Notes under the pieces: generated by a model
The model's database searches: none
What the model was told of the DNA's origin: nothing
The model's input: the letters and a program-made list of their open reading frames with translations, nothing else
Shown here: positions 53,522 through 54,447 of the stretch, piece after piece
Position numbering within the stretch: the first letter of the stretch is position 1
How the letters are laid out: the number at the start of each line of letters is the position of its first letter
Assembly: GCA_016871355.1 (NCBI GenBank)
Contig: VFZC01000006.1
Coordinates: 1-64,000 of the forward strand
DNA: 64,000 bases
From: Actinomycetota bacterium
GTDB lineage: Bacteria; Actinomycetota; Acidimicrobiia; Acidimicrobiales; Ilumatobacteraceae
Reading direction: 5' to 3'
Position numbers and translations under genes: made by a program

Positions 53522-53595
53522 GCCCTCGTAGCTCAGTTGGATAGAGCAACGGCCTTCTAATCCGTAGCGCGCACGTTCGAATCGTGCCGAGGGCG
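53522..53595 (+). tRNA. tRNA-Arg (anticodon TCT)
   Basis: A 74-base cloverleaf. The acceptor stem is GCCCTCG/CGAGGGC, the D arm GCTC-AGTTGGATA-GAGC, the anticodon arm ACGGC-CTTCTAA-TCCGT with anticodon TCT (reads AGA), a five-base variable loop AGCGC, the T arm GCACG-TTCGAAT-CGTGC and discriminator G. CCA is not encoded. The closing pair of the anticodon loop (31-39) would be C-T, a mismatch; the other four stem pairs are perfect. AGA is a rare codon in this GC-rich window, so a single copy is expected. Confidence 0.95.
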
Positions 53596-53616
53596 CCCAA
53601 ATCGGCCAGTCGGGTC

Positions 53617-53622: not shown

Positions 53623-53661
53623 CTCACGTCGGCCTGCGTACCCCCAACGATCGAGGTTTTC

Positions 53662-54447
53662 GTGAAGTTCAAGAAGGGTGACACCATCATCTATCCCCAG
53701 CACGGGGCCTGCAAAGTGGTGGCGACCCGCAAGGAAGACCCGTTCGGTAGCGGCAAGCAGATCGAGTACTTGGTGCTCAGCACGGTCATCGGCGAGATGA
53801 TGCTCAAGGTCCCGATGGCGAAGGTCGACGACGTGGGTGTGCGTCCGCCGGTGTCGCCCGACGAGTTGGCCGACTTGGTCGCAGTGTTGGCCAAGCCCGA
53901 TCCGCGCGTGCCGAGCAACTGGAGCCGCCGCTTCAAGAATCACCAGGAGAAGTTGAAGAGCGGTGACGTGTACCAGGTCGCCGAAGTGGTGCGAAACCTG
54001 TCGGCGCGTAATCGCGACGCCAGCCTGTCGGCCGCCGAGCGCACCATGTACGAGCGCGCTCGCGTCAACTTGATCTCCGAAATCGCACCGGCGCTCAAGG
54101 TGTCGCCCGAGGAGGCCGAGCGCTATCTCGACGATGCGTTGGCCAAGGGAGTCTTGAAGGCCATCAAGGCCGCACCCAAGAAGACTGAAGCCGCGGCCCC
54201 GGCCGCTGCTGCCGAGCCGGCCAAGAAGTCAGACGCGAAGCCTGAGCCGGCCAAGAAGACAGAAGCGAAAGCCGAGCCGGCCAAGAAGTCAGAAGTAAAG
54301 AAGGCTGCTCCGGCCAAGAAGCCCGAAGCGAAGAAAGCCGCTCCGGCCAAGAAGCCAGCCGAGAAACCCGCAGCCAAGAAAGCAGAGCCGGCCAAGAAGG
54401 CTGTCGCGAAGAAAGCCGCTCCGGCCAAGAAGCCCGCCAAGAAGTAG
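53662..54447 (+). CDS. carD: CarD-family RNA-polymerase-binding regulator with Lys/Ala/Pro tail
   Basis: A 261-residue protein. Residues 1-165 are an ordinary CarD: the Tudor-like RNA-polymerase-interaction domain (KGDTIIYPQHGACKVV) and the helical DNA-binding domain with the wedge Trp87 in VPSNWSRRFKNH. CarD stabilises open complexes at rRNA and housekeeping promoters. Residues 170-261 are an added low-complexity tail of repeats such as EPAKKSDAKP and KKAAPAKKP, about one third Lys and resembling histone-H1-like tails. Mycobacterial CarD (162 residues) lacks it. The tail is encoded by imperfect 30-base repeats. It likely adds non-specific DNA binding. The start is GTG with GAGG upstream. Confidence 0.92.
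   Translation: MKFKKGDTIIYPQHGACKVVATRKEDPFGSGKQIEYLVLSTVIGEMMLKVPMAKVDDVGVRPPVSPDELADLVAVLAKPDPRVPSNWSRRFKNHQEKLKSGDVYQVAEVVRNLSARNRDASLSAAERTMYERARVNLISEIAPALKVSPEEAERYLDDALAKGVLKAIKAAPKKTEAAAPAAAAEPAKKSDAKPEPAKKTEAKAEPAKKSEVKKAAPAKKPEAKKAAPAKKPAEKPAAKKAEPAKKAVAKKAAPAKKPAKK
54214..54440 (+). repeat. Imperfect tandem repeats encoding the CarD tail
   Basis: Units of about 30 bases, each centred on GCCGGCCAAGAAG or GCTCCGGCCAAGAAG, recur at least six times and encode PAKK-centred decapeptides. Unit lengths vary late in the block. Such repeats are prone to copy-number change. Confidence 0.8.

Follow-up and report, generated by a model that had tools for sequence, protein, structure and literature searches.

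The window analysed here, a 64,000-nucleotide stretch of an actinobacterial genome, carries a carD gene whose features are collected in Table 1. The host is an Ilumatobacteraceae-like, freshwater-type actinobacterium, and the protein is its housekeeping CarD. The reading frame, strand, coordinates and GTG start given in the initial annotation were recovered unchanged. The two Pfam domains, CarD_TRCF_RID and CarD_C, scored 40.3 bits (cut-off 23) and 101.2 bits (cut-off 23.1), respectively. Alignment with M. tuberculosis CarD (4ilu) stops at residue 165 and pairs Trp87 with mycobacterial Trp85; the equivalent promoter wedge in Thermus is Trp86 (PMC4593161), and the residue is invariant across 42 family sequences. 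The core is thus complete at about residue 165, Trp87 included, as had been proposed, and with both domains and the tryptophan wedge the protein is a CdnL/CarD-type member of the CarD_CdnL_TRCF family. By homology, this core would bind the β subunit of RNA polymerase (RNAP), wedge the transcription bubble and stabilise the open complex. It is the single CarD/CdnL match in the 2.2 Mb genome (86% complete). In 7 of the 8 related loci that were checked, the same tRNA-Arg (TCT) lies 5′ of carD, which fits orthologous loci.

Table 1 Features of the carD locus (positions in the window).
Feature	Position	Strand	Basis
carD coding sequence, GTG start, 261 aa and TAG stop	53662..54447	+	ORF translation, Pfam
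GAGG Shine-Dalgarno-like motif, 5 nt upstream of GTG	53653..53656	+	read from sequence
RNA-polymerase interaction domain, Tudor-like (PF02559), residues 3–61	53668..53844	+	Pfam; strands in model
CarD_C helical domain (PF21095), residues 72–157	53875..54132	+	Pfam; helices 66–163 in model
Trp87 codon, minor-groove wedge (Mtb Trp85 / Thermus Trp86)	53920..53922	+	alignment to Mtb CarD
Histone-H1-like Lys/Ala/Pro tail, residues 166–261	54157..54444	+	composition, predicted disorder
Imperfect tandem repeats building the tail, periods ~30, 33 and 45 nt	54211..54399	+	repeat analysis
tRNA-Arg (TCT) directly upstream of carD, context only	53522..53597	+	also at related loci

The core is followed by a tail, as the initial annotation had recognised; its length is 96 residues after residue 165 and not the 92 given there. 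Lysine makes up 32% of the tail and Lys, Ala and Pro together 82%; it comprises 31 Lys, 48 Ala plus Pro and 10 Asp/Glu, has a net charge of +21 and contains no Arg. The eight PAKK motifs account for 8 of the 29 matches to the degenerate PAKK codon pattern CCNGCNAARAAR in the whole 2.2 Mb genome, and the tail holds 29 Lys per 90 residues, compared with 9 in the next-best open stretch of the window. This concentration of lysine and PAKK is far beyond chance. Composition and motifs bear out the likeness to HupB and H1 that had been noted, and the tail has the form of an actinobacterial lysine repeat, with multiple PAKK motifs in a C-terminal extension predicted to be disordered. Membership in the H1/Hc2 families was rejected (Pfam HC2, 15.3 bits against a cut-off of 40; NCBIfam NF038053, 25.2 against 80), and the resemblance is compositional only.

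In the AlphaFold model, built from a 42-sequence family alignment, the core (residues 1–165) is mostly confident, with block means mostly of 80–88 and lower values of 69 and 74 around residues 81–90 and 111–120. The tail begins directly after the last core helix (residues 149–163); its pLDDT block means are ~41–62 and it has no secondary structure, and it is therefore predicted to be disordered. A Foldseek search of the PDB returned CarD structures at the top (8hvr_H and 6edt_M), with TM-scores normalised by target of 0.85–0.87 (0.87 for 6edt_M).

We compared the tailed protein with the CarD proteins and lysine-repeat proteins described to date. Mycobacterial CarD has a homologous core, ~40–44% identical in the structure search, with a conserved tryptophan wedge; it is ~162 residues long, ends in the Clp degron-like sequence LAAAS and has no tail, in agreement with the initial annotation and with the end of the 4ilu alignment. 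Tailed CarD proteins are known from myxobacteria, and these are the nearest precedents: PMC9304148 describes AT-hooks in M. xanthus and, citing Garcia-Heras et al. 2009, an H1-like tail in Anaeromyxobacter dehalogenans. The HMGA-like M. xanthus protein shares the CarD fold and a basic, disordered tail, and in some congeners of the window's organism the basic repeats are likewise preceded by an acidic segment. However, the M. xanthus tail bears RGRP AT-hooks, which are absent from the window's Arg-free tail, and on this ground an HMGA-type identity was rejected. The comparison with Myxococcus drawn in the initial annotation was thus correct as far as it went, and incomplete in that the C-terminal domain of Anaeromyxobacter CarD is already H1-like and without AT-hooks, and by description resembles the tail reported here (PMC9304148). 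The myxobacterial tailed protein is an accessory paralogue that always occurs with CarG, and M. xanthus has a separate tail-less CdnL. In contrast to Anaeromyxobacter, the tail in the window is carried by the only CarD found, in a member of the Actinomycetota whose relatives have tails of intermediate length.

PAKK-type or similar lysine repeats also occur in HupB/HupS, TopA, Ku and HrdB, on domains unrelated to CarD. PMC7398561 names HrdB, Ku, TopA and HU among the actinobacterial DNA-binding proteins that carry them; the repeats of HupB, Ku and TopA support DNA interaction or complex stability. CarD is not among the carriers named in the passages on lysine repeats in PMC5676037 and PMC7398561.

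Among the sampled Ilumatobacteraceae genomes, every CarD with a readable C-terminus reaches beyond the core. Most extensions are basic stubs of ~9–16 aa (KPAKEPAKKKA and similar), and the extension is basic in nearly all members; one species has only KPTDDA (L097). Tails of 24–30 aa, mostly acidic-ended, are found in genus g35 and some others. In L062, L207, L210 and similar proteins, tails of this length are basic and then strongly acidic (DDEDDE-like end), which is the opposite end charge to that in the window's genus. All 14 members of the latter with a detected CarD, the window included, have tails of 69–121 aa. Tails of at least 40 aa are present in genera g1, g36, g23 and g39, in most of the g19 members read, in part of g2 and of g21, and in one g37 species. 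In representatives of the other sampled families of the order, CarD stops at the core. The survey of CarD lengths proposed in the initial annotation thus returned short tails nearly throughout Ilumatobacteraceae, with recurrent long ones. On a quick core tree, at least nine changes are needed at the 40-aa threshold; many branches of this tree are weak, so we say only that tails of at least 40 aa arose repeatedly within the family.

A wider sample of 247 genomes of the phylum gave CarD matches in 173. Tails of at least 40 aa were seen in two genomes of the window's genus, in one of g36 and in three of g120, a genus of family f41 outside the class; within the class, two further lineages also have them (101 aa in f23 and 57 aa in f27). 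For the remaining matches listed, with paralogue G265:C4 left out, the open frame was too short for such a tail or the extension was at most 21 residues on inspection. A search of genus g120 detected CarD in 19 of 20 genomes (L265–L283), always with a long extension (128–265 aa in the 15 complete ones), in which a conserved ~70-residue linker (KPTGKRIAPKPPPKADPKAAAAARAAAAQQSR...RPPLSSTPPS) precedes the Lys/Ala/Pro repeats. It is apparently a more elaborate case than that in the window. The g120 core is only ~40–43% identical to that of the window and most intervening lineages have tail-less CarD, so an independent origin of the g120 tail is the simplest reading of the sequences. All 40 tails of at least 40 aa belong to genomes of at most 3.0 Mb, and among the 24 genomes above this size no tail reaches 20 aa; many of these sizes come from incomplete MAGs and the 3–4 supported independent contrasts cannot reach significance, so the link between a long CarD tail and a small genome is only suggestive.

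Codon alignments with congeners contain only whole-codon gaps in the tail. The dN/dS of the tail, approximate because the repeats align ambiguously, is 0.12–0.21 between the window and its two nearest species and between those two, 0.04–0.22 in five further close pairs (L011/L012, L011/L010, L006/L007, L008/L009 and L158/L216) and 0.17–0.43 in more distant pairs; that of the core is 0–0.09. The +1 frame of the tail is Arg-rich and usually interrupted by stops. An origin of the tail by frameshift or misreading of the frame was rejected because the gaps are in-frame and dN/dS is below 1. Among species with ~99% identical cores the tail is 69, 84 or 96 aa long. The simplest reading of these comparisons is that purifying selection acts on a fast-changing repeat.

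We propose that the tail is probably a low-specificity DNA tether that binds the backbone. The disordered, cationic tail would contact DNA largely irrespective of sequence and give CarD an affinity of its own for DNA; CarD could then be retained on the nucleoid near promoters, where RNAP–promoter complexes would be strengthened or prolonged. We infer DNA binding and the effect on initiation by analogy, for which HupB, TopA and myxobacterial CarD offer a plausible base; in HupB, nucleoid association is largely lost once the PAKK/KAAK tail is removed (PMC5676037). The proposal draws on the match in composition and PAKK motifs to the lysine repeats of HupB and TopA, on purifying selection with in-frame gaps only, on tails of the same composition having lengthened independently more than once, also in a genus beyond the class, on the position of the tail directly after the last helix of the DNA-facing CarD_C domain, and on the similar Lys/Ala/Pro tail of the genome's own HU. 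Counting against it, many relatives manage with 9–16 residues and in three congeners with an acidic patch (L010–L012) the net charge of the tail is no higher than +5 to +10, so that a strongly positive tail is not a strict rule; in the near-balanced tails (+5) the last 30 residues are still net positive. That the tail links transcription to the nucleoid state is speculation.

The strongest rivals to a DNA tether are altered Clp turnover and near-neutral repeat expansion. The tail might mainly hide or replace a C-terminal Clp degron and so set the level of CarD, with DNA binding secondary. The mycobacterial C-terminus LAAAS resembles a Clp recognition motif, Clp protease degrades CarD under starvation (PMC8820732), and in Ilumatobacteraceae the end of the core is never the end of the protein where the C-terminus is readable. 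However, ten residues would be enough for this, as in many relatives, and the high lysine content, the lengths of 40–265 aa and the recurrence are left unexplained; we regard a role chiefly in turnover as unlikely. Slippage in GC-rich GCC-AAG-AAG repeats, tolerated and serving no specific function, would account for the tandem repeats with periods of ~30–45 nt and for the range of 69–96 aa at ~99% core identity. It fits poorly with the low dN/dS of close pairs (~0.04–0.22) and the exclusively in-frame gaps, with a frame kept in all detected congeners and with the recurrence of Lys/Ala/Pro in unrelated lineages; occasional frameshifts into the Arg-rich +1 frame would also be expected, and none was seen. 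We give this explanation, too, a small chance of being right.

Two further explanations concern what the tail responds to or binds. Reversible acetylation or another modification of its lysines might tune CarD to the metabolic state, as in HupB and HupS; in Streptomyces, acetylation of HupS, a protein with a lysine-repeat domain, weakens its DNA binding (PMC11229371), and the window's genome has a Sir2-family gene. Yet Sir2 is widespread, and modification would be a layer over DNA binding and not an alternative to it, so that a tail serving chiefly as a modification target seems very unlikely. Cationic disordered tails are promiscuous, and one of this kind might have RNA, ribosomes or acidic proteins as its partners, or drive condensates, instead of binding DNA. 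The acidic-then-basic tails of some congeners suggest self- or protein–protein interactions, but the core positions the tail near promoter DNA, and we hold non-DNA targets to be the main role with very little probability indeed.

RbpA, a companion of CarD in 6edt, a mycobacterial open-complex structure, was not detected (PF13397) in the window's genome, in 61 Ilumatobacteraceae genomes, nearly all of which have CarD, or in the other Acidimicrobiia listed from the phylum sample; the same search detected it in Corynebacterium glutamicum. Ilumatobacteraceae CarD may thus act without an RbpA partner. Loss of RbpA as the cause of the tail was rejected, since its absence is family-wide, short-tailed members included, and does not track tail length. 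A broader scenario, which we put forward tentatively and consider rather doubtful as a whole, is that in small-genome Actinomycetota without detected RbpA, the general initiation factor CarD was converted repeatedly, as a short basic C-terminus grew by repeat expansion, into a nucleoid-protein-like factor that binds DNA directly, and that open-complex stability then came to depend on the DNA affinity of CarD and not on recruitment by RNAP alone.

A DNA-binding CarD tail has been stated to exist only in myxobacteria (PMC4374960, PMC9304148), and our literature search, mostly of titles and abstracts and with incomplete coverage, returned no paper that describes a tail on an actinobacterial CarD. 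In several actinobacterial lineages the housekeeping CarD bears an H1-like tail, and intermediate lengths run from ~10 to more than 200 residues; this offers a natural experiment on how a general initiation factor gains its own DNA affinity. A tail that grew step by step from a short basic stub is also an alternative to the fusion of two ready-made modules proposed for the CarD tail.

Motifs similar to those in CarD are found in HU tails of the window's genus. At the protein level the HU tail of the window's genome gave no significant match to the CarD tail that would indicate a recent copy (E 0.08). Several members of the genus (L290–L292, L294, L295 and L297) have a tail-less HU of 93 residues, and in several such members (e.g., G003, G007 and G016) there is a second HU match with a longer open frame. 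A free 69-residue Lys/Ala/Pro protein with PAKK motifs (MAAKKKAAKKAPAKKK...), resembling a stand-alone H1 tail, is encoded on another contig of the window's genome (G000 contig C17, ~36.6 kb; L128:1468–1677, + strand).
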